Assembly: GCA_003244055.1 (NCBI GenBank)
Contig: QHBZ01000254.1
Span: forward strand, 1 to 48,940
Source of the DNA: Pseudonocardiales bacterium
GTDB taxonomy: Bacteria > Actinomycetota > Actinomycetes > Mycobacteriales > Pseudonocardiaceae
Length of the DNA: 48,940 nucleotides
Direction of reading: 5' to 3'
In this document: piece by piece, positions 12,473-43,446 of the stretch
Numbering within the stretch: the first letter of the stretch is position 1
Layout: every line of letters starts with the position of its first letter
The notes under the pieces: generated by a model
The model's database searches: none
What the model saw: only the letters and a program-made list of their open reading frames with translations
What the model was told of the DNA's origin: nothing
Program-made: the position numbers and the translations under genes

Positions 12473-14178
12473 AGTTCGCGCCTTTCATCCGTCGAGGACG
12501 AGGCGGGTGGATAGTGCGCAAGTCCCCCCTCGGACACAGACACTACGCACACGGATGATGTTGGTCGGGTTTCGGCTAGTACGGTGTGTTCGGTGTGGTT
12601 GTAGGTGAGGCGGACGCCAAGTTCGCGGTAGACCTCCGCTTTGTCTGCCGGGTCGGCGTGGTGCAAGACGTCCAGCAGGCCACCGAGCGTGTTGACCATC
12701 GCGTGGATGTCGTCTCGGCTCATCTGTCGGTTTTCACCGTGGCGACTGGTGAGGGTGGCCAGCCTTGCCTCCGCAACTGTGCGTTGCTGCTGCACTTCTC
12801 GGCTCCATGTCACCACGAGTGCGGGATCGGCGCCTGCTTCGAGAGCTGCTCGATGGCGGGCGAGTTTGCATTCGCATTCGGTGATCGTTCGTCGCGTCGC
12901 CTCGAGGGCGGGAGTGTGGTCAGGTTGTGCGTCCTGTAACGCCGTTAGGGACTGCTCGATGCGATGGGGGGTGAATGCTTCTGCCAGCCAGGTGTCGAGT
13001 GGGTCGAGGACTGCGTTTTCGCGCACGTAGACGGTGAGTGGGTGATCGATGTTGTTTCCCACCGCGTACTCGTTGGGGAAGCGGCATCGGTAATGGGCTC
13101 GTCCGTGGTTCCAGTTGCCCTGCATGCGTCGGCCACAGGCAGCGCAGACCATGAGTCCTTTCAGCGCGTAGTGGTGTCGGGTCCGTAGCGTGCGTCCGGT
13201 CGACCTCGGGCCCCGTGACCCCAGCCGGAGCTGGGCTTCGTGGAAGATCTCTGGACTCACGAGCGCTGGGTGGACCTGCTGATCGGAAAAGATCCACTCC
13301 TCGCGGGGGTTCCAGGCCAGGGCGGTCCGATGCCCGAGGGCGACATCCTCGACATCGATGAGCGATTCCTGTTTGCGTTGTTTGTTCCATACCTGGTACC
13401 CGGTGTAGCGCGGGTTGCCCAAGATGGTGCGGACCGCGCTCTTGGACCACGCCAGGCCACACCGATGGGTGTTGCGGTCCGGGTCATACCCCGACGGGGA
13501 CGGGATGTCATCAGCAGTCAGGCGCTGCGCGAGGGCATAGATGCCAATACCCATCAAGTAGTCGTGGAAGATCCGCTGTACCACGGGTGTGGTGACTGGG
13601 TCCGACTCTAACCGCTTGAGCTGCTTGCCCTCTGCCGCTTTCGCGGGATTGGGATGCGGCCCAGCGTCGACCAACTGGTACCCGTAGGGTGGGCGGCCGC
13701 CCAGGTAGCGGCCTTCCACCTGTGCTTGGGCGGCCATCGCGGAGCGAACGCGGATCTTGATCCGGGTTCGCTCCCCTTTGCTCATCCCCCCGAACACCGA
13801 CATCACCAGGTCATGGGCCTCGGACTCCGGATCGATCATTCCTCCTACCTCGGGAACCCACAGTTGCACGTTGTAGTGGACGAAGACGGGGAAGGTGAGT
13901 CCGTATTGGTTGCCGTAGAAGGCCCGCTGAGGTTCCCCGATCACCACCGCCTCGAACCCCCGCTGCGGGTTCTTCAGCGCGTCGAGCAGCAGGGCTGCTT
14001 GAGGTCGGCGTTTCCAGGGGATCGAGCGCGACTGCCCGACGTCGAAGAACTCGGCCACGATCTCACCGTGACGCTCACTCAGTGCGCGGGCCCGCGCGAT
14101 CTGCCAGTTGCGGGACGCCTCCGGGTCCTGTTGATCCTCCGTGGACACCCGCCCATAGAACGCGAACCGCGCTATCAC
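12469..14178 (-). CDS. Large serine recombinase (integrase) of a mobile element
   Basis: Site-specific integrase of the resolvase/invertase type. GTG 14178 is chosen for its GGGAGG box 8-9 nt upstream, giving 569 aa; the longer frame to 14253 has no such site. Order: resolvase catalytic domain with FYGRVSTEDQQ (Ser12), Recombinase domain (GRPPYGYQLV, ILGNPRYTGYQVW), zinc ribbon (VCAACGRRM...YRCRF), a long coiled coil, and a tail ending EGGLAHY. All expected parts are present. The last codons lie on an AGTCCCCCCTCGGACAC sequence also found at the end of a second recombinase at 48.4 kb. Probably the integrase of the 12-23 kb conjugative block. Confidence 0.93.
   Translation of the reverse strand: MIARFAFYGRVSTEDQQDPEASRNWQIARARALSERHGEIVAEFFDVGQSRSIPWKRRPQAALLLDALKNPQRGFEAVVIGEPQRAFYGNQYGLTFPVFVHYNVQLWVPEVGGMIDPESEAHDLVMSVFGGMSKGERTRIKIRVRSAMAAQAQVEGRYLGGRPPYGYQLVDAGPHPNPAKAAEGKQLKRLESDPVTTPVVQRIFHDYLMGIGIYALAQRLTADDIPSPSGYDPDRNTHRCGLAWSKSAVRTILGNPRYTGYQVWNKQRKQESLIDVEDVALGHRTALAWNPREEWIFSDQQVHPALVSPEIFHEAQLRLGSRGPRSTGRTLRTRHHYALKGLMVCAACGRRMQGNWNHGRAHYRCRFPNEYAVGNNIDHPLTVYVRENAVLDPLDTWLAEAFTPHRIEQSLTALQDAQPDHTPALEATRRTITECECKLARHRAALEAGADPALVVTWSREVQQQRTVAEARLATLTSRHGENRQMSRDDIHAMVNTLGGLLDVLHHADPADKAEVYRELGVRLTYNHTEHTVLAETRPTSSVCVVSVSEGGLAHYPPASSSTDERREL
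12521..12546. repeat. Putative attachment-site sequence at the recombinase 3' end
   Basis: AGTCCCCCCTCGGACAC (12521-12537) plus CACTAC (12541-12546) recur at 48404-48429, 23 of 26 positions equal. The plus strand reads CAAGTCCCCCCTCGGACAC, which resembles the T-arm and acceptor 3' end of a tRNA. Confidence 0.6.
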
Positions 14179-14182
14179 GTCG

Positions 14183-14392
14183 CTAGCCTCCCTTATCGTG
14201 ATCGTCCACACATAGTGATGGTGACCTGTCTGCCTGTCGAGCCTCGCGCCCACGGCTTCGGTGTACGTTGCCCAGCAGCCGTAGCAGCGCTGCGGCAGCT
14301 TGCGGGGTGAGCACCGGTGGGTGTTCTGGGAGCACCACGCTGATCTGTTCGTCGCCGATGTTCCGAGGCCTTCGCCGTCGAGTGGCCTTCAT
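14183..14392 (-). CDS. Small hypothetical protein upstream of the recombinase
   Basis: From ATG 14392 (69 aa): MKATRRRRPRNIGDEQISVV then LPEHPPVLTPQAAAALLRLL, followed by a basic tail. The segment PVLTPQAAAALLRLL is a pattern I associate with small proteins encoded just upstream of integrases in actinomycete elements. The gene ends 4 nt before the recombinase GTG, so co-expression is likely. A control or directionality role is possible, but no excisionase motif can be assigned. Confidence 0.6.
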   Translation of the reverse strand: MKATRRRRPRNIGDEQISVVLPEHPPVLTPQAAAALLRLLGNVHRSRGREARQADRSPSLCVDDHDKGG

Positions 14393-14833: not shown

Positions 14834-16663
14834 TCATGGTTCGGGGTGGCTGGCGCGCCAGCGGCCCCGGGAGACCTGGACGGCGCGCCCGTCGGTGGCG
14901 TGGTCTTGGAGTCGGTCGTAGACCCAGGTGCGGCGCATGCCGGTCACCGTCATGAGATCGGGGACCGAACAGCCCTCCGGCGGGGCCTGCCGTAGCGCGG
15001 TCAGCAGCGCTGTGTCCGGGTCCTCACCGTCGGCAGGACCGGCCCCGGCAAGGGTCTCGCTGCTCTGCCTGGGCCGTGGGATGGATGGCTGCTGGTCATC
15101 AGTGCTGGGCGTGCTGTCGGGGGCCGCACGGGAGGCGTCATCAAGTCTGGGCCGGGTGGGGGCGTGGCGGGTGGCCAGGCTGGTGACGTCGGTGTCGGTG
15201 AGCAGGTAGGCGCGGGCTCGGCGTGGCACGGTGTGTTCGGGGGTGGAGATGAGGAATTTGCCGGGGGCGTCGAGGGTGTGGGCGTGCCACCCAGCGGCGA
15301 GCATGCCTTGGCCGAGCACGAGGTCGACGTCCCGGCGTTCCCGGACCCGCAGGCACACCCGGACGTCCATCTGCGAGCGGACCGCGCCAGAACCCATGGC
15401 CTTCTGAGTGGGTCGCTGGGTGGCCACCAGCAGGGTGACGGCCACGGCCCGGCCGCGCCGGGCGGTGGAGTCGGCGTGCCCCACGGCGGCGGGGGCATCA
15501 TCGCTAAGTTCGGCGTACTCGTCGATGACGACGACGAGCGCGGGCTGGGCCGGGCTGGGCTGCCACAGTCGCTGCCCGGCGTCAGCCAACCGGCTGGCGC
15601 GGGCCTCCAAGATAGCCACGGCGTCGGCGAGCAGTTCGGCTGCCTGGGCCGGGGTGGTGGCGAGTCGGTCGAGGCACGGTGCCCATGGCCCGAGTTCCAT
15701 CCCGCCCTTGAGGTCGACCCCCCAGAGCACGACGTCCGGGCAGCCGGTCAGCGAGGCGAGGATGGCGTTGAGGATGCCGCTCTTGCCGGCACCGGCGACC
15801 CCACCCACGAGCATGTGCCGGTGCGTCAGGGTGACGGCGACCGGGGAGGCGTCCTCGAACAGACCGAGCGGGATCGGCGCGGTGATCGTGCGTGGCTCGG
15901 TGCCGGAGGTGCTTGTGGGCCAGGCGATTGCGCGGGCGTGCGGGTCGGTGCTGAGGACTCGGATTAGGCAGTGGTCGGCGCGGGCGGGGTCGGGCTCGAC
16001 CCGGACGGCGCCGGGCCTGGTGCCGAGCCCGGACTCCAACGCGGGCATCTTGGCGATGACGTCGGCGGCTGTCTGCCCGCGGCACAGGCTGACGCGAGCG
16101 CGCCAGCCCCACAAGTCGACCACGGCCGACATGACTCGGGAGCCGTTGAGCCCGACGGCTTCGGCGATGTCGGGCCATGCTTCGAGGGTGCGCTCGACCC
16201 GGACCCGGGCGCGACGGCGTCGGTGCCGCCACCAGGGCATGGCGGCAGCGACGGTGCTGAGGACGAGCAGTGCGGGCAGCGACGCGGTACCGGGGCCGAC
16301 CGCGGTCGCGGCGGCCAGCCACAGCCCGGCCGCGCCGGTGACGGCGGCGGCGTAGGCACGCTCGATCCTGCGCAGGTCCGAGGTCAGCCGCTCCACGCAC
16401 CACAGCACGGCTGACCCCACGAGTGCGAGCAAGGCGATAACGGGTGCCCACCCGGAGAACCGCGGATGCAGGAACGCGGCGGTCAGCCCGGTGGCTGCCC
16501 CGAGGACGAGCGGGGCGAGCTCGGAGCGGTAGCGGTAGATCGCGCGGACCAGGGCTTCAAGGGTCTCGCCGGGGTATCGGTCGTCGACGAGCAGGGTGAG
16601 TGGCTCGCCCCTGACGTCGCGGCGGTGCAGGCGGCGGCGCATCCGCCGGGTTCGGCGGCTCAC
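14834..16663 (-). CDS. FtsK/SpoIIIE-type conjugal DNA translocase (TraB/TraSA-like)
   Basis: A 609-aa membrane ATPase of the class that moves double-stranded DNA between mycelial cells in actinomycete conjugative elements. Two to four transmembrane helices lie at about residues 48-90 and 105-143. The Walker A is GGVAGAGKS (287-295), the Walker B is ALVVVIDEYAEL (D381, E382), and a C-terminal winged helix (VPDLMTVTGMRRTWVYDRLQ) resembles the gamma domain that reads transfer-site repeats. GTG 16663 overlaps the stop of the 79-aa gene upstream (GTGA). Complete in length and motifs. It is the hallmark gene identifying this block as an actinomycete integrative conjugative element. Confidence 0.92.
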   Translation of the reverse strand: MSRRTRRMRRRLHRRDVRGEPLTLLVDDRYPGETLEALVRAIYRYRSELAPLVLGAATGLTAAFLHPRFSGWAPVIALLALVGSAVLWCVERLTSDLRRIERAYAAAVTGAAGLWLAAATAVGPGTASLPALLVLSTVAAAMPWWRHRRRRARVRVERTLEAWPDIAEAVGLNGSRVMSAVVDLWGWRARVSLCRGQTAADVIAKMPALESGLGTRPGAVRVEPDPARADHCLIRVLSTDPHARAIAWPTSTSGTEPRTITAPIPLGLFEDASPVAVTLTHRHMLVGGVAGAGKSGILNAILASLTGCPDVVLWGVDLKGGMELGPWAPCLDRLATTPAQAAELLADAVAILEARASRLADAGQRLWQPSPAQPALVVVIDEYAELSDDAPAAVGHADSTARRGRAVAVTLLVATQRPTQKAMGSGAVRSQMDVRVCLRVRERRDVDLVLGQGMLAAGWHAHTLDAPGKFLISTPEHTVPRRARAYLLTDTDVTSLATRHAPTRPRLDDASRAAPDSTPSTDDQQPSIPRPRQSSETLAGAGPADGEDPDTALLTALRQAPPEGCSVPDLMTVTGMRRTWVYDRLQDHATDGRAVQVSRGRWRASHPEP

Positions 16664-17606: not shown

Positions 17607-17810
17607 GGTCTGCTCCTTTCGGTCAGCGCCCGGTCCGACTCCATGATCTGGCTGTACATGTTCTGATCATGTTCCCGGCCGCACGTGGGGGGCGGTCGAG
17701 CCGGTTCTGGTGGGGCGCTTGCGGTGGGCCCCGGAGCGGTTCGTCCGGGGCGTGGAACAGAGTGCTGGACGGGAGTGGGACGTGATCACCACGCGATTGG
17801 ACGTAGGCAA

Positions 17811-17848
17811 GACGTCCCCTCTACGGTGTCTGCCGTCCTGGGACGTCC
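17811..17848. promoter_or_regulatory. Inverted GACGTCCC repeats upstream of the first HTH regulator
   Basis: GACGTCCC at 17811-17818 and GGGACGTC at 17840-17847 face each other about 20 bp before the start region of the gene at 17869. The same core occurs twice, 10 bp apart, upstream of the paralogue at 20763. Probable operator for one or both regulators. Confidence 0.55.
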
Positions 17849-17868
17849 TGACACGGAGCATGGTGGGG

Positions 17869-18603
17869 ATGGCGAACGATCGGCTGCGCACGGCGTTGCT
17901 GCAGCGCGGCGTCACCCCGGCCGAGTTGGCGGACGCGGCAGGTGTGGACCCGAAGACTGTCGAGCGGTGGATCGGCGGGCGCATCCCCTACCGGCGCCAC
18001 CGCTACCTCGTCGCCACCCGCCTGCAGGCTGATGAGACCTACCTGTGGCCCGACGCGCTTGCCCCGTCCGAGGTGGCCGACGCCTCGGAAAGCGAGATTC
18101 TCACTGTCTACCCGCACCGCTGGGCGGTCCCCCGCGATGCCTGGGGCCACTTGTTCGGCTCGGCCGAGAAGGAGATCGGGGTCCTCGTTTACAGCGGCTT
18201 GTTCCTCGCTGAGGACACCGGCCTGCACGCGTTGCTGGCCCGCAAAGCGGCCGAGGGGGTCAGCGTGCGTTTCCTGCTCGGAGACCCGGACAGCCCGCAT
18301 GTGGACACCCGCGGGCAGGACGAGGGCATCGACGAGGCGATGGCCGCGAAGATCCGCAACGTGATCGTGCTGTACCGCGCGTTGCGGCAGACAGAGGGGG
18401 TGCAATTCCGGGTGCACTCCACCGTGCTGTACAACTCGATCTACTGGGCCGACGGCGAACTGCTTGTCAACCCCCATGTGTATGGTGCGGCGGCGGCGCA
18501 GGCCCCGGTCATGCACCTTCGTCGGGTAGCCGGCGGCGGTATGGTCAGGACCTACCTGGATAGCTTCGAACAGGTGTGGTCCGGAGCGCGGCCACTGGAC
18601 TGA
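17869..18603 (+). CDS. XRE-type HTH regulator with DUF5919-like PLD-fold domain (copy 1)
   Basis: From ATG 17869 (244 aa). Residues 1-50 are a helix-turn-helix (ALLQRGVTPAELADAAGVDP then KTVERWIGGRIP). Residues about 70-235 are a conserved domain including EIGVLVYSGLFLAEDTGLHA, VRFLLGDPDSP, AAKIRNVIVLY, VLYNSIYWADGELLVNPHVY and DSFEQVW. I match this domain to the DUF5919/phospholipase-D-like fold. The lone HxxxxND-free layout suggests ligand binding rather than catalysis. A longer frame from 17710 is not protein-like before MANDRL. It is divergent from the transfer operon, is preceded by ACGTC repeats and is paralogous to the gene at 20763, so it probably regulates the element. Confidence 0.75.
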   Translation: MANDRLRTALLQRGVTPAELADAAGVDPKTVERWIGGRIPYRRHRYLVATRLQADETYLWPDALAPSEVADASESEILTVYPHRWAVPRDAWGHLFGSAEKEIGVLVYSGLFLAEDTGLHALLARKAAEGVSVRFLLGDPDSPHVDTRGQDEGIDEAMAAKIRNVIVLYRALRQTEGVQFRVHSTVLYNSIYWADGELLVNPHVYGAAAAQAPVMHLRRVAGGGMVRTYLDSFEQVWSGARPLD

Positions 18604-20703: not shown

Positions 20704-20730
20704 GGGACGTCTAGGGACGTCTTGTGTTAG
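20704..20730 (+). promoter_or_regulatory. Tandem GGGACGTC repeats upstream of the second HTH regulator
   Basis: GGGACGTC at 20704-20711 and 20714-20721, spaced exactly one DNA turn, 40-60 nt before ATG 20763. They share the core of the dyad upstream of the paralogue at 17869. Confidence 0.6.
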
Positions 20731-20762
20731 CGTCACGGCACGAGCATCACGGGGAGGAGCCC

Positions 20763-21518
20763 ATGGCCGTGAAGGTGACACCGCCGATCAGTCCGCTGCG
20801 GCGGGCTCTGGCCGAGTCGCGGCTACGGGAAGTGGACGTCGCCGAGACTCTCGGCGTCGACCCGAAGACGGTGCAGCGCTGGCTCGCCGGGCGTCTGCCT
20901 CAACCCCGGCACCGCTGGGGGCTGGCGGATCTTATTCAGCGACACGAGTACGACCTGTGGCCGCACCTGGCCGGGGGGCTGGCGCCGACGATCAACCGGG
21001 AGATCCTGGCGACCTACACCCATCGGGGGGCGGTGCCTCGGGAGCTCTGGCGGCAGTTCTTCACCGGCGGCGAGAGTGAGATCGGCATCCTCGTCTACGC
21101 GGGACTGTTCCTCGCAGAGGACATCGATCTCGTCCGGATCATGCGCCACAAAGCCGAAGACGCGGTAACCATCCGCATCCTGCTCGGCGATCCCGATAGC
21201 GAGCAGGTCGCCCTGCGCGGAGCCGAAGAAGGCATCGCCGAGGCCATGGCGGCGAAGATCCGCAACGTCATCGTCCTCTACCGGCTGTTGCTGGACATGC
21301 CCACGGTAGAGATCCGCCTGCACACAACCGTGCTGTACAACTCCATCTACCGCGCCGACGACGAGATGCTCGTCAACCCACACGTATACGGCACCGCCGC
21401 AGCACAGGCCCCCGTCCTCCACCTGCAACGCCACGGCGACGGGGACGGCGACCTGTTCGGTACCTACGCCGACAGCTTCGAGCGCGTCTGGACAGCCGCC
21501 AAGCCCCTGCCCTCCTGA
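20763..21518 (+). CDS. XRE-type HTH regulator with DUF5919-like PLD-fold domain (copy 2)
   Basis: From ATG 20763 with GGAGGAG just upstream (251 aa). The same architecture as the gene at 17869, with long shared runs (VDPKTV-RW, EIGILVYAGLFLAED, AEAMAAKIRNVIVLYRLL, TVLYNSIYRADDEMLVNPHV, AAAQAPVLHL, DSFERVW). The N-terminal HTH is the least conserved part, so the copies may read related but not identical sites. Having two copies within 3 kb suggests a duplication or two stacked elements. Tandem GGGACGTC repeats lie upstream. Confidence 0.78.
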   Translation: MAVKVTPPISPLRRALAESRLREVDVAETLGVDPKTVQRWLAGRLPQPRHRWGLADLIQRHEYDLWPHLAGGLAPTINREILATYTHRGAVPRELWRQFFTGGESEIGILVYAGLFLAEDIDLVRIMRHKAEDAVTIRILLGDPDSEQVALRGAEEGIAEAMAAKIRNVIVLYRLLLDMPTVEIRLHTTVLYNSIYRADDEMLVNPHVYGTAAAQAPVLHLQRHGDGDGDLFGTYADSFERVWTAAKPLPS

Positions 21519-23661: not shown

Positions 23662-25893
23662 ATGGGCACTTGGGGCTTTCTTCCGCTGGATAATGATACG
23701 GCGGCTGATTGGTGTGGCGAACTTAATGATGCTGCTCCCTCGGAACGGCCGGAGATGGTAGATAACGCCTTGAAATACATCATTGAAACCAAAGATAATA
23801 TGGGGCTGGACAATACCCAAGTAGCCATTGCCGCCGCAGCCGTCGTGGCGTCCCAATTGGAAGACGGGCCACTCATGACGTCAGCGTATGGTCCGGATTT
23901 CATACTCGCAGGTGGTTCTCTTGATGTCGCCCACCTCGCGCCTCTCGCGGCGCAAGCGCTAAACAAAATACTTAACCATCGCGCGTCGGCTTGGCGATCA
24001 GAATTCATCGAAGAGATCGAGAAGCTGCACGACATACTGGCGTCCTCGTGTGGACGCCCTAGGCCTGAAGTGCAGTGGTCTGCCGTTGCCACCAAGGGCT
24101 TCTCGGACCGACCCGCGCAATCTGATTTGCTGCAACGATCATCCCTTATTGAAGTTATCGTGGGTTTGTTATCACCAATGCGTAATTCCAATGCGACAAG
24201 TTCCCCGCACGAGGGGCCGCAGGTAATCTGCATAGAAGGTGCGTGGGGTTCAGGAAAAACAAGCGTCATGCATCTAATTGCTAGCGAGCTAAAATCGCAA
24301 GCATGGGTCGTAGATTATGTTCGACACCCCCTTTTCCGGCCGTGGTCGGCATGGAAGCCTTCGCGGATCACACCATTTATGGCGCATCGCTTATTGGGCA
24401 TATGGCGGTCGCGCCCCATTCCCACGTCGAGCGGAAAGTACACGCCCATTGAAAAATACGAGTCCGAGCCCATGCCCGTAGTGGCCACATTTGAGCCATG
24501 GGCACACCAATCGAGTGAACAAGTCTGGGCCGCGCTCGCCAGGACTATTACACAAGCAGGCACTGAGGCGTTGTATAAGAGTGAGGGGGAGCGGCGGAAA
24601 TACTGGTTAAGTAGAAATGCTGAACGAGTGGACACCACGCCACTACGCCAGGCCCTTTGGCGCGGCATCGCCTCACCACTGTTGCGCGTATCAATTTTTG
24701 CGCTAATCGTTCCCATTGTGGTGCAGCTCCTAAGGCCCGATACCAGGTTCTCGATGCTGGGCATCGGCACTTTCGGACTTGCCTGGCTCCTCCCGGCGCT
24801 TCTCCTAGCTGCCGGTTTGGCACATACGGTTGCGCACTATCTGTTGGGGCGAGCTGATGCCTTTCTTCCGGAGGAAATGTTCATGGGTCCGGTACTGAGT
24901 GGCGTCCTCGCTACATCATACGCGGAGGGAATTCTGCGAGACCCATTGCATCACGCACGTTCAGGCAGCTTGTACCTAGTCCAACATGACGTCAAAGTGG
25001 TACTAGATGAGATGCGGCGAGCCAATCGTGAAATGGTCCTGTTTGTCGATGACCTTGATCGTTGCGCTCCCGATGTCACCGTTGAAGTTCTTCAAGCAAT
25101 CAACCTTTTCATGTCGGGGCAGCTGCACGGATGCCGATTCGTGCTCGGCTTAGATCAAGCGGTCGTGGCAGCTCAGATCAGCGAGGTATACGGGCAGGAA
25201 GAATTAGCCAAGACAATGACCTATGGGGATGACCCTACGCTGGGGTGGAGTTTCCTGCGTAAGATGATCCAACTTCCTGTCATACTACCACGCTTAACGG
25301 ACAATGCGGTAGAGGGCTATGTGCGCGCGTTATTGGGTGATATAGAAACACAAGTCGAGACGATCGAGCGGCTCGATTCCGAAAGCCAGCAAAGTTCAAC
25401 AACCTCAGGTGAGCAAGCGGGAGACATGGCGGCGGAACGGCCAAAAAATATTGGCAGGCGCCCGAGTCTGCTTGAACGGCATCCCGAGGTTCGGGAAGTC
25501 TTGCGCAATCGGCTCGCCGCTAGCAATGGCTCCTCGGGCAGGGAAACGAAGAGATTCCTTACTGTGTGGCAATTCTACCTTCGAGTCACCATCAACTCAT
25601 CGTCCGACATGACGCTGTCTAATGGCGTACTTCTCGCCAGACGGCTTGTTTTCGCGAGCGAGATCATCGTGCGCTGGCCTGCCTACCTTCGCCAGCTATG
25701 CAAGCCGGTTGACGGGAAATCTGCTCTGATCCTCCTGGCTGAGAATGTCGATAACGACTTGGAATGGACATCCACACTTGCCAAAATTGGACTTGACAAA
25801 CCTGCATATTTCTCCGTAGCGAAGAATCTTCGCAGTCTTCTGCGCTGTGACGACTCAAAGGAAATCGCCATACTTACCATGCATCTGATTTAA
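23662..25893 (+). CDS. KAP-family P-loop NTPase with N-terminal DUF4259-like domain
   Basis: A 743-aa protein. Residues 1-130 begin MGTWGFLPLDNDTAADWCGE, the hallmark opening of DUF4259. Residues about 150-740 are a KAP NTPase: Walker A GAWGSGKTS (193-201), two to three inserted transmembrane helices (about 340-357 and 366-395), and Walker B MVLFVDDLDRCAP (458-470) followed by the KAP-type VEVLQAINLFM. KAP NTPases sit at the inner membrane and many belong to phage-defence or signalling loci. The gene is AT-richer than its neighbours and stands alone, so a single-gene system is plausible. ATG 23662 follows GAAGAA; the N-terminus is complete. Confidence 0.88.
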   Translation: MGTWGFLPLDNDTAADWCGELNDAAPSERPEMVDNALKYIIETKDNMGLDNTQVAIAAAAVVASQLEDGPLMTSAYGPDFILAGGSLDVAHLAPLAAQALNKILNHRASAWRSEFIEEIEKLHDILASSCGRPRPEVQWSAVATKGFSDRPAQSDLLQRSSLIEVIVGLLSPMRNSNATSSPHEGPQVICIEGAWGSGKTSVMHLIASELKSQAWVVDYVRHPLFRPWSAWKPSRITPFMAHRLLGIWRSRPIPTSSGKYTPIEKYESEPMPVVATFEPWAHQSSEQVWAALARTITQAGTEALYKSEGERRKYWLSRNAERVDTTPLRQALWRGIASPLLRVSIFALIVPIVVQLLRPDTRFSMLGIGTFGLAWLLPALLLAAGLAHTVAHYLLGRADAFLPEEMFMGPVLSGVLATSYAEGILRDPLHHARSGSLYLVQHDVKVVLDEMRRANREMVLFVDDLDRCAPDVTVEVLQAINLFMSGQLHGCRFVLGLDQAVVAAQISEVYGQEELAKTMTYGDDPTLGWSFLRKMIQLPVILPRLTDNAVEGYVRALLGDIETQVETIERLDSESQQSSTTSGEQAGDMAAERPKNIGRRPSLLERHPEVREVLRNRLAASNGSSGRETKRFLTVWQFYLRVTINSSSDMTLSNGVLLARRLVFASEIIVRWPAYLRQLCKPVDGKSALILLAENVDNDLEWTSTLAKIGLDKPAYFSVAKNLRSLLRCDDSKEIAILTMHLI

Positions 25894-26330: not shown

Positions 26331-27101
26331 GCTCTGTTGCGTTGACGGATGATGGGGTCGGTCCAGGATGGGAGGATGCGTCGTCGCCCTGAACCAGTAG
26401 CACCGCCACGGTCCGGTTTCGCGGGATTCCGGTTCCCACCTGACGTGAACATGGTGGCTGTCCGCTGGTACCTCCGCTACGGGCTGTCCTATAGGGATGT
26501 CGAGGAGTTGCTGACTGAACGCGGCGTCACCGTTGATCATGTGACGATCTATCGGTGGGTGCAGCGGTTCACCCCGCTGCTGATCGATGCGGCACGTCCC
26601 AGCCGGCACGTCCCGGGAGATCGGTGGTTTGTGGATGAGACGTATGTCAAGGTCGTCGGGCGGTGGGTGTATCTGTATCGGGCGATCGACCAGTACGGCC
26701 AGGTCATCGACGTGCTGGTCTCCCCGAAACGGGATCTGGCGGCCACCCGCCGGTTCTTCATCCGCGTCCTCGAGCACGGCCGGTGTCCGACCGAGGTGAT
26801 CACCGACCGGGCAGCGGCCTACCCGCGGGTGATCGAGGAGCTGATACCCGCTGCGTGCCACATCACCGAGCAGTACGCGAATAACACCGTCGAAGCCGAT
26901 CACGGGCGGCTGAAGGCTCGACTCCGGCCGATGCGCGGCCTGAAACGGCTCCGCTCGGCACGAGTGATCAGTACCGGACACGCCTTCGTGCAGAACCTCC
27001 GCCGCGGCCACTACGAACTCGGCGTGGACATCGACCGACAACATCGGCTCACCGCGATCTTCGCGGAACTCGCCCACGCCATCTGATCAACGCAGCACGG
27101 C
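26331..27101 (+). mobile_element. IS6-family insertion sequence (copy 1)
   Basis: The left end GCTCTGTTGCGTTGA (26331-26345) pairs with the reverse complement of 27087-27101 (CCGTGCTGCGTTGA), a diverged IS6-type terminal repeat (GGCACTGTTGC class). It contains one complete transposase gene. Confidence 0.65.
26349..27086 (+). CDS. IS6-family transposase
   Basis: About 236-245 aa. The zinc/HTH start (VRWYLRYGLSYRDVEELLTE then RGVTVDHVTIYRWVQRF) precedes a DDE catalytic domain with FVDETYVKV, VITDRAAAYP and VEADHGRLKARLRPMRGLK. All three acids are in place. It starts at ATG 26349/26352 or 26376; the last has a purine-rich tract almost touching it. IS6 elements move by replicative cointegration and often bracket accessory genes in the same orientation, as here with copy 2 at 36865. 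Confidence 0.9.
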   Translation: MMGSVQDGRMRRRPEPVAPPRSGFAGFRFPPDVNMVAVRWYLRYGLSYRDVEELLTERGVTVDHVTIYRWVQRFTPLLIDAARPSRHVPGDRWFVDETYVKVVGRWVYLYRAIDQYGQVIDVLVSPKRDLAATRRFFIRVLEHGRCPTEVITDRAAAYPRVIEELIPAACHITEQYANNTVEADHGRLKARLRPMRGLKRLRSARVISTGHAFVQNLRRGHYELGVDIDRQHRLTAIFAELAHAI

Positions 27102-27558: not shown

Positions 27559-28392
27559 ATGGTCGACGTCCTCGCGATTCACGGGATCAACATGCACCGC
27601 TCACGCCGTGTGGCAACTGCTGAGGCCTGGCGCACCTCAATCGTCGACGGGCTGGTGGACCTCCGAAGCGGCCACGCAGAGTCATTGAGCGTCGAATTCG
27701 CGTTCTACGGTCACCTTTACAACGATGGGAAATCCGACGCCGAAGCCCACTACACCGCTGCCGACGTGGAGCCGGGATTCCAGACCGAACTCATCGAGGC
27801 AGTGGCTGCGGGCGTCCAGAACGAGTCCGAACAACCGGCGGACACGAAGCTGTGGCTCCCCAGTCCGCTACAGCGAGCTCTGGCAGCGCTGCAGCGCAGC
27901 CGGCTATTCGACGGTTGTGACTCGCTGCTGATCTCCTTCGTGAAGCAGGTCGATCGGTACGTGCACGACACCGATTTCCGCGCCGACGTGCTCGACGAGG
28001 TTGCGAAGGCGATGCAGAGCTCTCCCCACGTAGTGATCGCGCATTCGCTTGGCAGCGTCATCGCCTACGACTGGCTCCAGCACAACGAGCCACCGGTCCG
28101 GCCCGGATTGCTGACGCTAGGCTCGCCGCTCGGGTTCGAGGCGATCCGGCGGCGGCTCGACCGTCCAGCAGACCGGTCGCGGTGGCCCGGCACGATTCGT
28201 TCGTGGACGAACATCGCTGCGCACCACGACGCGGTGGCAATGGTGAAGAAGCTTGCCCCGCTCTACCACCCCGACATCGTCGATGAGCCATGCGACAACC
28301 CGCGTCGCTCGGCCCATGCGGCGCTGTGCTATCTCGGGAATATCCGCACTGCCCGAACCATTGACAAAGCACTCGACGCGGCACAAACGTGA
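27559..28392 (+). CDS. Alpha/beta-fold serine hydrolase, first gene of a defence-like operon
   Basis: A 277-aa protein from ATG 27559 with AAGGAG upstream. It opens MVDVLAIHGINMH, giving the HG oxyanion-hole strand, and has the nucleophile elbow HVVIAHSLGSVIAYDW (Ser163), then LLTLGSPLGFEA and a C-terminal histidine region (NIAAHHDAVAMVKK). It has no signal peptide, so it acts in the cytoplasm on lipid, ester or peptide substrates. Its stop overlaps the GTG of the caspase gene (GTGA). In conflict systems such hydrolases commonly act as the lethal effector or as a protease-activated enzyme; that role is inferred from the neighbourhood. Confidence 0.8.
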   Translation: MVDVLAIHGINMHRSRRVATAEAWRTSIVDGLVDLRSGHAESLSVEFAFYGHLYNDGKSDAEAHYTAADVEPGFQTELIEAVAAGVQNESEQPADTKLWLPSPLQRALAALQRSRLFDGCDSLLISFVKQVDRYVHDTDFRADVLDEVAKAMQSSPHVVIAHSLGSVIAYDWLQHNEPPVRPGLLTLGSPLGFEAIRRRLDRPADRSRWPGTIRSWTNIAAHHDAVAMVKKLAPLYHPDIVDEPCDNPRRSAHAALCYLGNIRTARTIDKALDAAQT

Positions 28393-31300
28393 CCGTCCAG
28401 CGGCTGTTTTGCATGTCCGGGGTCGCCACGTACGGCACCGATCGTGAAAATCTCACCCGGGTACCGGAGGAGCTCCGGACCGTGCGCAAAGCCCTCAGCG
28501 GACTGGGCCTCGACGAGCTGTTTCCGTTCGACAAAGACGAGCGCGACCACCAACAACTCCATGATGAATTGTTGCTGTGGTCGACGAAGGACCCGGAGCC
28601 GACCGATGACGCCGCCGACACCACCCTGGTCATCTACTGCACCGGGCACGGACTCGCCGACGGCGGCCGGTTCCGGCTGGCCCGCGCTGGTGGACTTCGG
28701 TTCGATCCCACCGAACTGGTTGCGGCTGTTGAGCGCCGCCGCGATCTCCGTCAGATCGTACTGATCATTGACGCTTGCTTCGCAGAGCAGGGCGTCGACG
28801 ACGTGGTCGCTGAAGCCCGGGTGCCCGGCTCGCGGACGGCGAACATGGATGTCTGGAGTTTCGGCGCCGCCCGGCGGGCGGATGAAGCACAGCAGGGCGC
28901 GTTCGCCCACGCTTTCGCTGACGCCCTCGTCCGGGCCGCGCACCCCTCCTGGGATCATGAGTATCTCGATCTCGCCTCCGTTGAGCTCGACGTCGAACGG
29001 CAGCTGGCCGATCAACCTCAGCGGACCTGGAATGTTCAGGCCAACCAGCGGCCGTGCCGCGCGCTGCCGAATCCGCTGCACCAGCCGAAGACGCTACCGC
29101 AGACGCTCAGTTCGCCCCTTCCGTCGCACTGGATTGCCTTGGCGCGCGGCGTGCACTCCGCCAATCGGCCAGGATGGTTCTTCACGGGGCGCACCGGCGT
29201 ACTCCGCGACGTCGTAAAACATCTGGCAGGCGCCGGGCCAGAGCGCATCCTCGTGGTCACCGGCGGTCCAGGGTCGGGCAAGAGCGCTCTGCTTGGCTAT
29301 CTCGCGCTGATCGGGACGTCATCGAGCCGGATCACCCTTCCGACCGTAGCTCGCGCGCGTCACCTCGTGGGCGAGGACGCGGTGACCGCGGCAGGGCGGT
29401 TCGACCCGATGGATCAGGACGGGGTGACGCGCACGCTCGCGCACGGCTTAGGAGCAGCGGGAAGCACCGCGGACATAGTGCGCGCCGCGCAGGAACGGTG
29501 CGGTTTGACCGGGATCGTCTTGGATCAGCTCGACGACGAGGCGCCAGATTGGCTGTGGACCGAGCTCGTGGGCCCGCTGGCCGCCATCCCTGGGGTGCGC
29601 CTGGTACTGGGCTCGTCCCGGGCCGTGCTGGGCAAGGTGCCGGGGCCCATCCGCCTCGTTGACCTTGACTCAGACGTCGACGGCGCGGGCGATGTGCTCA
29701 ACTACCTCACCTTGCGCGTCCGCCTGGCCCGACAAGGGCTCGGCCTACATGAGGTGGTGCGAACGGCGGCAGCGCTCGCAGGGCAGGCGTGCGACCGATT
29801 CGACGTGGCATCGGCTGCGGCGGACGCCCTGCAAGGGGCGATCCGTTGCGGGGTTTCGTCCTCGAAGGCCGAAGCGGCCGCCGAGACGGCGGCGGCCGAG
29901 ACCGCCCGTACCCTGTGCCTGCGGATCGCACGTCTTCACCTCGGCGACCGGGTCACCGCCGCCGTCGATGCTTTGTCGGTCCTCTGCTCGCACCACGAAT
30001 CGGTCGCGTTATCGGCTGTCGAATGGGCAACGGTCGCGTCCGACCCGCCGGGAATTGCGGTGTCCCCGGATGAGATGGTGGCCACCGCGTTTGCCCTCAA
30101 ATCGTTTCTCGAACAGCGACATTCCCCGGATGGAACGCTCCGCTGGCGTCCGCGCTTCCGGCCCCTGCCGACACAGGACACATCCGAAGCGGAACGTCTC
30201 CTCCTGCGCCTCCCCCAGCTGAACTCCGGCGCTACCGGGGACTGGTCAAGCGTCGACGTCGCGGTATGGCCGCTGCTCGTCGCCGCGGCCCATCTGGAGA
30301 CACCGGCGGGAAAGTTGATTGATTTGCCTGAGTTCCTCCTCGCCTCCCCGGCATCAAGGGTCATGGCAGCGATGCGGAAGATCGGGAACAAACCAGAACA
30401 GGCGCGGCGCGCCCGGATGTGGCGGACAGTGCCGTGTGAAGCCCCTCCCGGAGACCGGGCCCTTCTGCTCGGAATCGGAGCCCGCAGGTATGGAGTCCCA
30501 ACGTTGGCTGGCGCACCGGCGTCGATCGGCTATCGACCCTCCCTGGGCATCCGGTGGGTGCATCCCGACCCGTCGCGTGACAAGCAGTGCACACACCTCG
30601 CCACCGCAGCACCCGGCCCGGCGTCAGCGGCGCTAACCGCGCACGAGGACCGGACATTCGCGATCTGGGACCCGAAGGATGGGACGTGCCTCACGGGTCC
30701 CCAGGCGTTGCCCGGCGCCCCCTACTCGGTTTCGGTCACGGTCGGGAAGACGGGCGTCCTGGCGCTGCTGTCGACGCGGCAACGCGAGGTCTGGGTCATT
30801 CGCCAGAGCGAGGTGGCCGCTCTCCGGTCAGTCGTGCCGGACAACGCCGCGGGTGGGCCTACGCTCGTCGCGCTGCATGCCACCGGACTCGCAGTCACGA
30901 CATCCGGGACGCAGGCCTGGCTGCTCGATGTGGAGGCAGGCGAGTTACCGCGGCAGCTCGCCCGGATGGATTCCACGATTTGGCAGGTACTGCTCGTCGG
31001 GACCGTCCAGGCTCCCGTCGCGTGGCTTGTGTCCGACACCGGCCGTATCCGGCGGGTGCCACTACGCGGCCCGGCCCGGCCGTCACCGGCATCCTTCCCT
31101 GTCCCCCACGGGCCATTGCAGGTGGCCGCAGACGCAACAGGCGACCGGTTGCTCGTCGTCGACCGCAGCGGCACCGTGCACCTTCGCGGGGCCGGCGCGG
31201 CGGCCACACCCCTGATGGGCTTGCACCGGGAGGACGTTCGCGCGGCCGCCGTGAACGGGCGGTGGGCTGCCGTAGCGGGCGTCACGCCCGGACGGGCGGC

Positions 31301-31478
31301 GTGGCTTGACATCTACGACATCACCGACCTTACCGGCCACCGTCGGATACCACTGGACGACACGCCCGTTGGCGTGGACTTCGTCGGGGACGACGAGCTC
31401 ATCGTCGCGCGGTCTTGCGGGCTCATGGTGGTCGACATCGGCGAAACAGATCTCCCGGCGAACCTTAGGTGTAGGTGA
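28389..31478 (+). CDS. Caspase-like protease fused to STAND-type NTPase and probable beta-propeller
   Basis: A 1029-aa protein. Residues 1-220 are a caspase/C14-type protease: DTTLVIYCTGHGLAD places the catalytic His at 87, and VLIIDACFAEQG places Cys at 130. Residues about 260-560 are a P-loop NTPase (FTGRTGVL, Walker A TGGPGSGKSA at 291-300, acidic strand IVLDQLDDEAPDW, sensor-like LVLGSSR). Residues about 690-1029 hold repeated four-strand patterns (DRTFAIWDPKDG, REVWVIRQSE, ATGDRLLVVDRSGTVHL) expected for a beta-propeller sensor. GTG 28389 overlaps the hydrolase stop; ATG 31479 of the next gene follows at once. The layout is that of an NTP-controlled suicide protease. Confidence 0.85.
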   Translation: MTVQRLFCMSGVATYGTDRENLTRVPEELRTVRKALSGLGLDELFPFDKDERDHQQLHDELLLWSTKDPEPTDDAADTTLVIYCTGHGLADGGRFRLARAGGLRFDPTELVAAVERRRDLRQIVLIIDACFAEQGVDDVVAEARVPGSRTANMDVWSFGAARRADEAQQGAFAHAFADALVRAAHPSWDHEYLDLASVELDVERQLADQPQRTWNVQANQRPCRALPNPLHQPKTLPQTLSSPLPSHWIALARGVHSANRPGWFFTGRTGVLRDVVKHLAGAGPERILVVTGGPGSGKSALLGYLALIGTSSSRITLPTVARARHLVGEDAVTAAGRFDPMDQDGVTRTLAHGLGAAGSTADIVRAAQERCGLTGIVLDQLDDEAPDWLWTELVGPLAAIPGVRLVLGSSRAVLGKVPGPIRLVDLDSDVDGAGDVLNYLTLRVRLARQGLGLHEVVRTAAALAGQACDRFDVASAAADALQGAIRCGVSSSKAEAAAETAAAETARTLCLRIARLHLGDRVTAAVDALSVLCSHHESVALSAVEWATVASDPPGIAVSPDEMVATAFALKSFLEQRHSPDGTLRWRPRFRPLPTQDTSEAERLLLRLPQLNSGATGDWSSVDVAVWPLLVAAAHLETPAGKLIDLPEFLLASPASRVMAAMRKIGNKPEQARRARMWRTVPCEAPPGDRALLLGIGARRYGVPTLAGAPASIGYRPSLGIRWVHPDPSRDKQCTHLATAAPGPASAALTAHEDRTFAIWDPKDGTCLTGPQALPGAPYSVSVTVGKTGVLALLSTRQREVWVIRQSEVAALRSVVPDNAAGGPTLVALHATGLAVTTSGTQAWLLDVEAGELPRQLARMDSTIWQVLLVGTVQAPVAWLVSDTGRIRRVPLRGPARPSPASFPVPHGPLQVAADATGDRLLVVDRSGTVHLRGAGAAATPLMGLHREDVRAAAVNGRWAAVAGVTPGRAAWLDIYDITDLTGHRRIPLDDTPVGVDFVGDDELIVARSCGLMVVDIGETDLPANLRCR

Positions 31479-34400
31479 ATGATGAACTCGGACGACCTGT
31501 CGGATGTGGCATGGGGCGACGTCGAGCGTGATCATTTGACGGCTGGTCTCGTGCTGGTCCGCAGCCTCCTCGGCGGCCACATACCTGCGGAGGCCGGCTG
31601 GGCGTACCTCACTGAATTCGACCGCGATGTCATCGGCCGGCTCATCTCAACGGACCCGCTGACGGTGGCCCCCCTGCTGTGGTATTGCTGGTCCCAACAG
31701 GGCGGTGCGGATCTCGATAGACTCGCGACGTCGAGCGCGCCGGAAGGCACCATCGAGTTACTCCTCGACCTGGTGCGCCTCGGCGAGCTGGTGAACAGTG
31801 CGGCCGGATCGCCGGAGCCACGCACGGTAGGCACTAGTCCACAGGTACTTGTCGAGGAATTCAACCGGCGGTGCGTTGTCCTCACAGCGCGCCAGGAGCA
31901 CCCGGGGGAACCTGTCTACCCGTGGTACGACCGGCGTGGCCCGCTCGAGAGAGCTAGTGCGGTGGCCACCGACTCGCTGACCGAGCTACTGAAGGACTTC
32001 CCCTCGCTACAGCGCGCGACACCGGCCGGCGCATGGTACGCGTGGTGGCCACCGAGCGTCCCGTTCCAGGCCCGGACCGCTGCGCTGCCCTTCGCGCTGT
32101 GGCTGCTCGGCCGTAGCACCGGCCTGGGGGCGCCGCCCCTGCTTTCCGACGGCCACCTCGTCGGGGAACGGGTCGAGATCTTGACGGCGGAAGAGATGTC
32201 GGTGCGGACGAAGGCTGCTGAGGAAGCCTGCTGTGACCTCCTGCTCCCCACCGGTTCCGGGTGGCGGAGATTCTCCAGCACCGGCACGGACCGACTCGGG
32301 GGCGAGCTGTCCCTCGACGGCGCGGCCGCCTGCGTGTGGGGCACGAGGTGGGAATCGTGGAAGCGGACGCACCACTTTGTCGAGCTGGCCCGGCTCGGCT
32401 GGTCCCTAGTCGACTGGCGACAACAGCCTGCCAATCAACCGGTGCCCGACACCGACGTTTCCCAAGTTCACTCACTGAGCCGGTTCTGCATAAACACCGC
32501 GGCCCCGGCGGCAATCTCGCTCGGCGGTTCGGCGGGAGGTGGCAAGAGCACGATCGTGCGACGCCTCGCCAATCGGCTTACCGACCCGAGCCTTACCAAG
32601 AAGCGCACCTGGGATGTCACTGTCGTATCGAGGGGAGCTGGCGAACTGCCGGGCCGTGAACTCGCACTCGCTGTCGGACGTCACGTCCTGGGGGCTGTGG
32701 GCCAACCGGCCGACCGTCGGCTGCTGGTCTTCGAAGACATCCAGCCAATCGGCAGCGGTGACGCGGACGCCGTGCTGCATTACGTCGCTGACCAGCTCGG
32801 CATTCTCGTGCTCGGGGTGCTGCAGTACGATGGCAACAACCAGGAGGAGTGGCAAACAGACAGGCTCTCCCCCGTTACCGCACCCATCGGGCCGCTCGCG
32901 CGGCAAGCCTTCATCGAGGAGATCGCAGCGGCCCGTCCCGAGCTGGGGCTCGATCCCGGGCCGGCATTCGCTGAGCAGGCAGCCAACCCCCGCTGCGACT
33001 TGCGCCGGATCACCCAGTTGATGGTGCCCGGAGCGGATCCTCGGGCAGAGCTCGTTGAGCGCTATCGCAGGCTTCCCACTTCGGTGCAGCGGCGCCTGGT
33101 CGCCGCCGCCGCACTCAGCCTGATCTCCGCGGAGATCACCGCAGACGAGCTCGTCGGGCTCGATGCCACCGACCATGCCGTGTTCGGCGTCGAGCCGGGC
33201 CGGACCGCGGCAACTGCCCGCCTGGCAGGGGAAGACGAGTGCCTCGTCCTGATGGACCTGCACCGCGGAGCAGAGCCGGGCGCGCCCAATCGCCAGCGCC
33301 ACGAAATTCTGATGACCCTCGTTGAGGTGCTCGAACCAGAGTTGGCGACGAAGTTCCGCACTGGCGCGGCGATCCTTCCGGACCTGCTCTGCGGCGCGCG
33401 GCTATACCACCCCAAGGCGTGCCGCATGCTGCTAGACAGTGCGAAGTCCGACGACCGGCTTGCGGAATGGGTGTCCTCGGCCTCGGTTGCCAGCATTCAC
33501 GCGCTACTGCGGCTGCGTGAGCAACTCGACGAGGATGACGTCCGCAGGGTGCTCACGCAACTCGTCGACAGATTGCCCGGAGAGGACGGCTGGATGCCCG
33601 CGACGCTTCTGGCAGTCGTGCGAAGCGTCCAGCAGGTCGACTACCTCTTCTCGCCCGAGCAGCGTGACGAGTTCGTGCGTTGGCTGCTGACCGCCACGGG
33701 CAAGGTGATCAGTGACGGGGCCGGGCGGCCCGATGAACGCCTGGCGCTGCTGACCATGATCGAGCGGTTTGACGGTGAGGATGTCAGGAAGCTAATCGCC
33801 GATCGGCTGTATGACGCCCTCGCAGGTCTGTCGGTCGAGCGCGTCGACGACTACCGACTGGTCCGCCGAGCCGACCACTTGCAGCGTCGGATCGGCCAGG
33901 TTATCGAGGGCCAGGACCTCGAAGAGGACATCCCGCTATTCCCGGTAAGCCAAGAGGACGCCGTTCAGAATCTATTGAACCACAAGCCGAGCCAGAGCGA
34001 TGGGGTCGACGGGTTGATCGAGTCGATGATCCTGCGTCTGCAATTCGGATCCATGCGCGATAATTGGGATGCTGTTTTCGACGACCACAAGGACCACCTG
34101 AGTCCGGCCATGCGTCACACCTCGCCGGCACGGCTGACCCAGGCTTTCCACGAGCTGCGTACGTATCAATCGCCATACGCCACATGGCTGATCTCACAGT
34201 GGGTCGGCTTCGCCCCACAGGCCCGCGAGCTGATGAGCCGCTGCAGCCTCGCGGACGGAGCTGGGCTACTGACGGCGATCGGCAGATCCAATGCTGCCGC
34301 AGCATTCGAAGTGCTGAACACGTCACGGGACAGTCCGGCTGTCGTTCTCGCGCAGAGCCTCGCCCAACTGGTGTCCGACAGTAAGGACGCGAAGGGAGCC

Positions 34401-36326
34401 GGCTTGATGCTATCCGCGGCACGTGCCGTCGATGACATGTTCCGCACCGGGCCTGACATATTCTCCACGGTCCTCGCCGAGTCTCTCGGCGAGGACCTGG
34501 TCCGCGTCCTAATCCAGAAGGATCGCCGGCTCTCGTCCCGCTATTACTTGATCAAAGGCGTGTGGGATGCTCAGGCAGGCTACCGAGAGCAGACCCTGGA
34601 CGACGCTCTGACGATCGTGGTGGAAGCCATTCGCGCCGGCCGCAAATACTGGGGACCGGCCATCGCATTGCGACTGGGGCAGGATCCGGAGCTGGGCGTC
34701 CGCGCGCTCACCGAGCTTCGCAGAAGGCTGTCACCTGAGGCACTACTCGTAGGAATGACAGGAGCACCCACGGCCGAAGCGTTGGCAAGTTTCCACCGGC
34801 TCGGCCGGGTATTGCACGAGGAAGTACCGGACCTGTTTCTCCACCGTTGGGACGAGGAGTCTTTTTCGCGGCTGGTCCTCATGTCGGCGCCCACCGCAGC
34901 CATGGATGCCTGCGCTCAGGTCGCCCACACACTCGCCGAGGCCGGGATGCGCAATCCCGGACCAGCCATCGTCGAGGCGACGGGTGGGTACTGCGGGTGG
35001 GCGGGAAGGCTGGAACACGGCCAGCAGCACGAGGGTTTTGCGCAGGCACTGAACAGCTTGCATGACCTCGACAGGTGGGCTGCGAAGGCAATGGTCGAGG
35101 AGCTGCGCTCCCGGCAATCGCGGATACAGATCAACGGCGTACCCGTCGATGCGCTCGTTGCACGGGTGCGCAACGCCCTGTTCGACGAACCGAGCGCCGC
35201 TCCGGCAGTCCTGCACGCTGTTGAAACGGTGGCACCTGGAACTGCCAAGGAACTGTGGAACGAAGCTGTGCAGGACGGGATGGCGTTTCACATCTTCCGG
35301 AACGAGATCAAGCAACTGCAGGATCCGATCGCGCAGTCGATCGCAGCCCGTCACCTCGTGGAGGTGGGCGTAGTGCCCGGAGCAGATACCGCGAACTGGG
35401 TCGAGACGGTCAACCATACCCGATTGCAAGTGATAAGCCGGGCTGCTTCCCCTCGCACCATAGACGCTGTCGTGCGCATGCTGGCGACGTGGGACGTGGG
35501 CTGGGGCGTCGCTGCGGCAAGAAGGATCACGCTTGGACAGGTCGCCCGGCGGTTGCGCCATGGGCTCGTCAACGACTTCCAGCCCACAGTCGGTCTGCTT
35601 CGAACGCTGGGCGCGTTGGGCCTCAGAACCGAGGTCGAGGAACTGATCGACCCCCTGATACAGACGGGCTTCGACCGAATCTGCAGGTATGTGTCGCTCC
35701 ACACAGCGTGCGAACTGCTGGATCTGCTCGCCGAGTTCCGGCCGATTGACGCAGCCCAGGCCTGCACCGCCCTCACCGACGCAGTCGATGCGCAGATCCG
35801 GCTCCCGGTCGTCCTCGACGTCCGCGATCACTGGCTCCAGATCGGACGTGCCTGCCGGGCGCTGCACCGAAACCGACACGTTATGCGCCCTGTCAGTGAT
35901 CCACAGATTCGATCGAACACGGCTCATGCACCAGTGCTGGCCTGGGCGGCAACCGGCGTCGCACAGCCCGGCTGGGGTGGGGATGTGCTAGATCAATGCG
36001 AGCTAGACCTCAATTCCGTCACGCGTTCGGGTGCGACCGACCAGGTGTGCGTGCTGGCCGCGACGAGCAGCGGATGGGCGCCGAGTATTCGAACAGACGG
36101 CCGAGCGTGGCACGTCGAATCTGCTCCCCTATGGCTACTACGAGTTCTATATGACGACGCGGCACATGACCGGATCGTGGCATCCGCCCTCGCCGCGATC
36201 GAACCGGTCATTCGTGCACGACTGGATTCACCGAAGTTCCGCGCGGACTGGGACGCGAAAAAGCTCCGACTGTCGTACGGATCGACAGCCTTTCAGTGGA
36301 GTTCAGGCAAGAACCCCTCAATCTGA
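31479..36326 (+). CDS. Giant STAND-like P-loop protein with long helical-repeat tail
   Basis: A 1615-aa protein, ATG directly after the caspase gene's stop. Residues 1-320 are an unassigned N-terminal region (effector or adaptor) with LLWYCWSQQGGADLD and AWYAWWPPSVPFQARTAALP. A P-loop follows: ISLGGSAGGGKSTIVRRLAN (Walker A 349-357), Walker B RRLLVFEDIQPIGSGD (413-428), and then a winged-helix-like segment near 530-600. From about 620 to the end it is a long all-helical array with no exact repeat unit, of the type used for target recognition. It resembles Avs-type sensors in size and plan but not in recognisable motif. Probably the sensor or scaffold of the operon. Confidence 0.8.
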   Translation: MMNSDDLSDVAWGDVERDHLTAGLVLVRSLLGGHIPAEAGWAYLTEFDRDVIGRLISTDPLTVAPLLWYCWSQQGGADLDRLATSSAPEGTIELLLDLVRLGELVNSAAGSPEPRTVGTSPQVLVEEFNRRCVVLTARQEHPGEPVYPWYDRRGPLERASAVATDSLTELLKDFPSLQRATPAGAWYAWWPPSVPFQARTAALPFALWLLGRSTGLGAPPLLSDGHLVGERVEILTAEEMSVRTKAAEEACCDLLLPTGSGWRRFSSTGTDRLGGELSLDGAAACVWGTRWESWKRTHHFVELARLGWSLVDWRQQPANQPVPDTDVSQVHSLSRFCINTAAPAAISLGGSAGGGKSTIVRRLANRLTDPSLTKKRTWDVTVVSRGAGELPGRELALAVGRHVLGAVGQPADRRLLVFEDIQPIGSGDADAVLHYVADQLGILVLGVLQYDGNNQEEWQTDRLSPVTAPIGPLARQAFIEEIAAARPELGLDPGPAFAEQAANPRCDLRRITQLMVPGADPRAELVERYRRLPTSVQRRLVAAAALSLISAEITADELVGLDATDHAVFGVEPGRTAATARLAGEDECLVLMDLHRGAEPGAPNRQRHEILMTLVEVLEPELATKFRTGAAILPDLLCGARLYHPKACRMLLDSAKSDDRLAEWVSSASVASIHALLRLREQLDEDDVRRVLTQLVDRLPGEDGWMPATLLAVVRSVQQVDYLFSPEQRDEFVRWLLTATGKVISDGAGRPDERLALLTMIERFDGEDVRKLIADRLYDALAGLSVERVDDYRLVRRADHLQRRIGQVIEGQDLEEDIPLFPVSQEDAVQNLLNHKPSQSDGVDGLIESMILRLQFGSMRDNWDAVFDDHKDHLSPAMRHTSPARLTQAFHELRTYQSPYATWLISQWVGFAPQARELMSRCSLADGAGLLTAIGRSNAAAAFEVLNTSRDSPAVVLAQSLAQLVSDSKDAKGAGLMLSAARAVDDMFRTGPDIFSTVLAESLGEDLVRVLIQKDRRLSSRYYLIKGVWDAQAGYREQTLDDALTIVVEAIRAGRKYWGPAIALRLGQDPELGVRALTELRRRLSPEALLVGMTGAPTAEALASFHRLGRVLHEEVPDLFLHRWDEESFSRLVLMSAPTAAMDACAQVAHTLAEAGMRNPGPAIVEATGGYCGWAGRLEHGQQHEGFAQALNSLHDLDRWAAKAMVEELRSRQSRIQINGVPVDALVARVRNALFDEPSAAPAVLHAVETVAPGTAKELWNEAVQDGMAFHIFRNEIKQLQDPIAQSIAARHLVEVGVVPGADTANWVETVNHTRLQVISRAASPRTIDAVVRMLATWDVGWGVAAARRITLGQVARRLRHGLVNDFQPTVGLLRTLGALGLRTEVEELIDPLIQTGFDRICRYVSLHTACELLDLLAEFRPIDAAQACTALTDAVDAQIRLPVVLDVRDHWLQIGRACRALHRNRHVMRPVSDPQIRSNTAHAPVLAWAATGVAQPGWGGDVLDQCELDLNSVTRSGATDQVCVLAATSSGWAPSIRTDGRAWHVESAPLWLLRVLYDDAAHDRIVASALAAIEPVIRARLDSPKFRADWDAKKLRLSYGSTAFQWSSGKNPSI

Positions 36327-43346: not shown

Positions 43347-43446
43347 CCGGTGGGCGAAGGTGGACAGTGTGATCGCGAACCCGCGCGGGGATCTTGGCTC
43401 CACATGTCGTCGCCTCGGCATCCAACATGAGTTAGGCTCCCCGTTC

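Follow-up and report, generated by a model that had tools for sequence, protein, structure and literature searches.

When DUF4259 is found at the front of a membrane KAP NTPase, is the joint protein real, how rare is it, and what might it do? The question is raised by a gene in a 48,940-nucleotide stretch of Pseudonocardiales DNA (contig QHBZ01000254.1; hereafter the window). The gene lies at 23662-25893 on the + strand and was recovered from the ORF listing as one 743-residue reading frame without interruption, in which both Pfam domains exceed their curated cut-offs. Residues 2-118 match PF14078 (DUF4259; E 1.5e-18, 68.3 bits against a cut-off of 22.8) and residues 184-611 match PF07693 (KAP_NTPase; E about 5.1e-26, 92 bits against a cut-off of 20). 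With these significant matches and with intact Walker motifs, the fusion of DUF4259 to a complete KAP NTPase with membrane helices, proposed in a preliminary description of this DNA, is confirmed.

The fusion gene and its surroundings

The protein can be divided into three parts. The DUF4259 head (residues 1-118; 23662-24015, +), delimited by the Pfam match, alignment A2, the structural model and the start-codon rule described below, is all-helical in the model and carries MGTW at its exact N-terminus. A linker (residues 119-140; 24016-24081, +) follows, bounded by the onset of core homology near residue 141 and coinciding with low pLDDT at residues 126-139. The remainder is the KAP core (residues 141-743; 24082-25890, +), which is common to relatives bearing other heads and was delimited by identity to them. 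Base composition by codon position is nearly equal in the DUF4259 part (0.63/0.43/0.56) and the core (0.60/0.45/0.57), so that nothing points to a recent junction or an assembly chimera. The gene as a whole is AT-rich, as first described, with about 55% GC against about 65% around it.

The KAP core has an intact Walker A motif, GAWGSGKT (residues 193-200; 24238-24261, +), and an intact Walker B motif, VLFVDDLDRC (residues 459-468; 25036-25065, +), the latter holding the D-D-L-D-R of KAP NTPases. G193, G198, K199 and D463-R467 are invariant in the 16 KAP members of alignment A4. Between the two motifs sit two predicted transmembrane helices, at residues ~336-354 (24667-24723, +; Kyte-Doolittle 19-residue mean 2.28) and ~365-383 (24754-24810, +; mean 1.94); the full-length model shows both as long helices (339-357 and 370-395, respectively). 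Membrane segments inserted into the P-loop domain are a hallmark of KAP proteins, and the hydrophobic insertion matches it, the membrane location being predicted. The C-terminal region (residues 612-743; 25495-25890, +) is helical in the model and conserved, with RETKRFLTVWQ and RWPAYL among the invariant columns of A4. The full-length model is of only moderate confidence (pLDDT 72.5, pTM 0.62). Its top fold match in the PDB is RdrA, a ring ATPase of RADAR (E 2.5e-4, with a low TM-score of 0.34), in line with a possible ring-forming ATPase. Assignment of the fusion to the STAND/nSTAND NTPases failed, the nSTAND_NTPase5 profile reaching 24.5 bits against a cut-off of 34.

The fusion gene stands directly upstream of a DDE_Tnp_IS240-type transposase gene (26349-27086; Pfam). 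On the - strand of the window lie an XisF-like serine recombinase gene (12469-14253), a gene for a TraB/FtsK-like transfer protein (14834-16663) and, by eye, a C-terminal piece of a second recombinase (48236-48904). The recombinase and TraB/FtsK-like genes are parts of an integrative-conjugative element around the fusion locus.

Just past the transposase gene, three tightly packed genes (27559-36326, +) look like a separate conflict operon. One product is alpha/beta hydrolase-like. Another, of 1029 residues, has a caspase-like region at its N-terminus (NCBIfam caspase_w_EACC1, 1.6e-6, under the cut-off) and a P-loop, and by eye its C-terminus resembles a propeller. The third is a P-loop protein of 1615 residues without family. 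The N-terminal part of another product (43360-44430, +) is TIR-like by eye and gave no NCBIfam match. An overlapping gene pair at 2741-4755 (+) is a possible toxin-antitoxin system, in which the second gene matches the spr1629 repressor/antitoxin family with 2.7e-38 without reaching the equivalog cut-off. Two genes about 3 kb apart (17710-18603 and 20724-21518, +) resemble each other by eye and are apparent paralogues: both start with a helix-turn-helix, which is BldC-like in the first gene, and they share a longer domain.

Exchange of heads on the KAP core

In a whole-genome search with the fusion protein, strong matches begin at residue ~141 and extend to the end; the open frames of these relatives are longer than the matched part, which allowed their N-termini to be read. 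The 94 gene copies of the core reduce to 74 non-redundant loci in Pseudonocardiaceae, Micromonosporaceae, Streptosporangiaceae, Streptomyces and one Rhodococcus record, and in two families the core occurs in about 10% of the sampled genomes (34/351 and 36/299). The A1 scans yielded 47 genome loci and 10 weak viral matches. The closest relative, encoded in Micromonospora mirobrigensis (L031, which is also L147), is a Ser/Thr kinase-KAP protein that shares 46.6% identity across residues 141-743 and has the same motifs and membrane hairpin. In a quick maximum-likelihood tree of 69 cores it is the sister of the window core (SH-aLRT 100), yet it bears a protein kinase at its N-terminus in place of DUF4259. 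Many other cores are 35-41% identical to that of the window, and those with caspase, TIR, subtilase or WD40 heads 27-41%.

The heads in this position are diverse. Kinase heads were found at L031 (8e-45) and L185 (4.5e-43), caspase heads by Pfam at L128 (7e-11) and L192 (1e-13), TIR heads at L107, L131 and L133, a subtilase head at L145 and WD40 propellers at L033, L034, L036, L109, L140, L143 and L172. The heads of L032 and L108 match the NCBIfam EACC1-associated caspase model with scores below its cut-off, and that of L111 has a TCAD9-like region, also below its cut-off. Heads that looked by eye like a nucleoside phosphorylase (L142) and a cyclase (L144) could not be confirmed on checking and count as unassigned, and several N-termini, mainly from Streptosporangiaceae, gave no domain match. 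The caspase-, TIR-, subtilase- and WD40-KAP proteins of Actinomycetota (L128, L131, L145 and L034, for example) thus share the core and its position with the window protein and differ in their heads, none of which is DUF4259. WD40 is the commonest class, at 36 of the 69 tree rows, some of these rows being labelled by BLAST linkage of their N-termini and not by a per-row profile scan. On the core tree the head type changes at least nine times among assigned rows. The KAP core has therefore swapped heads repeatedly, and the closest pair differs in exactly the head.

Across families no conserved partner gene adjoins the core; conserved neighbours are lineage-specific. In Lentzea (L148, L151-L159, L161, L163 and L167), the WD40-KAP gene adjoins a conserved block of genes of 548, 315 and ~290 residues and in many assemblies lies ~1-2 kb from the contig end, as if a repeat came after the gene. 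At L035 (8409-9047, +) a stand-alone 212-residue KAP C-terminal piece, 52% identical to that of the window, appears to be a remnant of a close relative. The TIR-KAP gene of L107 (4625-7681, +) shows by eye a trypsin-type peptidase before the TIR domain, perhaps giving two effector-like domains on one core. The literature searched holds just brief mentions of an actinobacterial KAP family with exchangeable heads.

The DUF4259 domain and the rarity of the fusion

DUF4259 is strictly N-terminal in our sample, and the fusion preserves this front position. In 58/58 non-identical, independent DUF4259 genes (L008-L030, L194-L233) the codon before the invariant glycine is a start codon (47 ATG, 9 GTG and 2 TTG), and in this same set Gly2 is present in 58/58 and Trp4 in 57/58. 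So strict an opening of start codon and glycine is unusual for a domain without assigned function. The hallmark noted at the start of the window protein is there: it opens with MGTW, although the consensus G7 and F9 are replaced by Leu (alignment A2). Stand-alone actinobacterial DUF4259 proteins share the domain (up to 45% identity) and the MG-x-W start with the fusion; unlike it, they have about 123-156 residues and no KAP domain.

The domain was modelled as five helices (pLDDT 88.4), the first residues being of low confidence; alignment A3, which combined cores and stand-alone DUF4259, misplaced the DUF4259 rows and was left out of modelling. It has no match among PDB sequences (best E 0.28), and a search with its model found no similar fold at E <= 0.001 in the PDB or among viral folds. 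A Csx1 profile matched DUF4259 relatives marginally (E 0.002-0.07) and the window domain not at all. Enzyme and known-fold assignments were rejected, since neither sequence nor fold led to a relative of known structure and no catalytic motif is evident. A small helical domain of this kind speaks for a binding or recruitment role.

The fusion itself is very rare, a single case here. When the DUF4259 profile was run over the loci fetched by that point, the window was the sole match among the ~74 KAP loci, and no DUF4259 gene lay near any other of them. DUF4259 was further sampled in the phylum, the order and two families, in nearly 2,000 genome searches partly covering the same genomes; it occurs in 148/331 genomes of one family, and no second DUF4259-KAP fusion was seen among the matches listed. 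The longest other DUF4259 frames (685, 627 and 566 residues) reach a stop at most 146 codons past the DUF4259 start, and the remaining listed frames are too short for DUF4259 and a 600-residue core, so that none is such a fusion. Apparent C-terminal fusions at L008, L009, L011, L013, L020 and L024 are read-through of high-GC frames, since DUF4259 has its own start codon and a stop 123-156 codons on in 58/58 cases. No plasmid record covers 80% of the fusion protein, no phage record matches it, and a single-sequence scan of genome contigs gave no close relative, so the fusion may be a private accident of one genome. The literature searched mentions DUF4259 in one paper, whose subject is a lanthipeptide, and does not describe the DUF4259-KAP architecture; on the architecture and its rarity the earlier description is borne out. 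This suggests that DUF4259 has not been reported before as a head; modular KAP conflict NTPases are already known.

A candidate membrane switch and its alternatives

That effectors are displaced again and again while the architecture is preserved is a stated hallmark of conflict systems (Kaur et al., PMC7159879), and the repeated exchange of heads on one core is what leads us to a conflict reading. KAP has been reported as a replacement for STAND NTPases in conflict proteins (PMC8195603) and as a STAND stand-in among diversified sensors (PMC10907252). The RdrA fold match, the PADLOC similarities given below, and the integrative-element genes and the caspase-like/P-loop gene in the same window also count in favour. 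The earlier idea of a one-gene conflict module is strengthened by relatives that carry the same core with kinase, caspase, TIR, protease and WD40 heads. Its companion claim, that DUF4259 orphans occur beside immunity-type genes, found no support: at the five stand-alone loci tested there is no defence neighbourhood, and the nearest neighbours are mostly ordinary metabolic, regulatory and transport genes (glutathione peroxidase, LysR regulator, lipase, ABC transporter, methyltransferase, phosphodiesterase). This counts against the conflict reading, as does the report that QatA is largely dispensable for qat defence (PMC12424860).

Using PADLOC, we observed similarity of the fusion protein to QatA, PDC-S20 and PifA. 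PifA of plasmid F is a KAP NTPase linked to phage exclusion; it shares the KAP NTPase with the fusion in a weak match, and differs in its low similarity and the absence of DUF4259. QatA of the anti-phage qatABCD system is likewise a KAP NTPase with a weak profile match (85.7 bits), but the fusion falls far short of the 600-bit equivalog cut-off, QatA lacks DUF4259, and no qat partner was found among the locus proteins scanned, which were part of the neighbouring genes. The KAP variants of EAD/STAND conflict proteins (PMC8195603) resemble the fusion in a central KAP NTPase with an exchangeable N-terminal domain and differ in that no effector-associated domain was recognised here. Further adaptor copies on separate effectors, as in EAD systems, were not found: DUF4259 matched once (2.8e-19) in the window's 94%-complete genome, and hence no same-domain partner was seen in the host.

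Fusion, motifs, homology and repeated head exchange are observed directly. Going beyond these, we propose that the gene by itself encodes a membrane-anchored, NTP-regulated conflict switch, probably anti-phage or anti-mobile-element, with DUF4259 as an exchangeable head; we give this proposal about an even chance of being right. In the scheme that we infer for topology, oligomerisation, trigger, signalling direction and defence role, the KAP core would be anchored in the inner membrane via the helical hairpin between Walker A and B and would sense a perturbation, NTP binding then leading to an oligomer, probably an RdrA-like ring. Assembly would cluster the N-terminal heads, which are enzymes or scaffolds in the relatives, on the cytoplasmic side, where the DUF4259 head, probably non-enzymatic, would most likely recruit, or be modified by, a partner delivering the output.

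A bolder form of the last step would make DUF4259 an immune head or effector of a new class, with its exposed N-terminal glycine as a site of modification or conjugation, the modified glycine being the output of an NTP-switched membrane complex with the KAP ATPase. The analogy is with QatB of qatABCD, whose N-terminal glycine in an MGTS motif is essential and proposed to be modified, and with type IV CBASS CD-NTases, in which modification of the N-terminal glycine was shown (PMC12424860). A QueC search gave a partial 22-bit match in the window's genome and none in the ten genes scanned beside stand-alone DUF4259 loci; since no QueC linkage was found, we consider this form quite improbable.

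The opposite assignment would make DUF4259 a sensor, or else a WD40-like binding module, and leave actuation to the core and its C-terminal region, which might for instance perturb the membrane once assembled. This assignment draws on the predominance of WD40 heads in the family, which are usually binding and not effector domains, on the lack of an evident catalytic motif or enzyme fold match in DUF4259, and on the location of the membrane insertion in the core. We find it possible but somewhat unlikely, because the kinases, caspases, TIR domains and subtilase found in this slot are outputs and not sensors, and because the core is the conserved part, while sensors usually diversify. Greater doubt attaches to a chance fusion or decaying acquired gene, a DUF4259 gene having joined a KAP gene in one lineage with no selected unit function or defence role. 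Such an event would fit a fusion seen once, with foreign composition and a transposase gene directly downstream; against it, no damage is seen in the reading frame, the Walker motifs, the membrane helices or the C-terminal motifs, DUF4259 retains its invariant residues and exact N-terminal position, and the two halves are so nearly equal in composition that the join has no look of newness. A membrane ATPase with a housekeeping or developmental task, acting in signalling or division and unrelated to conflict, could be imagined because the eukaryotic neuronal scaffold Kidins220/ARMS is a KAP protein too and because kinase and WD40 signalling proteins are numerous in multicellular actinobacteria. 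The patchy distribution of the core in the two families, the repeated exchange of heads with immune-type effectors, the foreign base composition and the mobile-element setting make it a poor candidate.

DUF4259 is widespread in actinobacteria and has no assigned function. Its placement in the slot of kinase, caspase, TIR and protease heads provides a first functional hypothesis for this domain, and its strict MG-x-W start singles out one specific residue. The fusion further delineates a family of actinobacterial KAP proteins whose heads are exchangeable.
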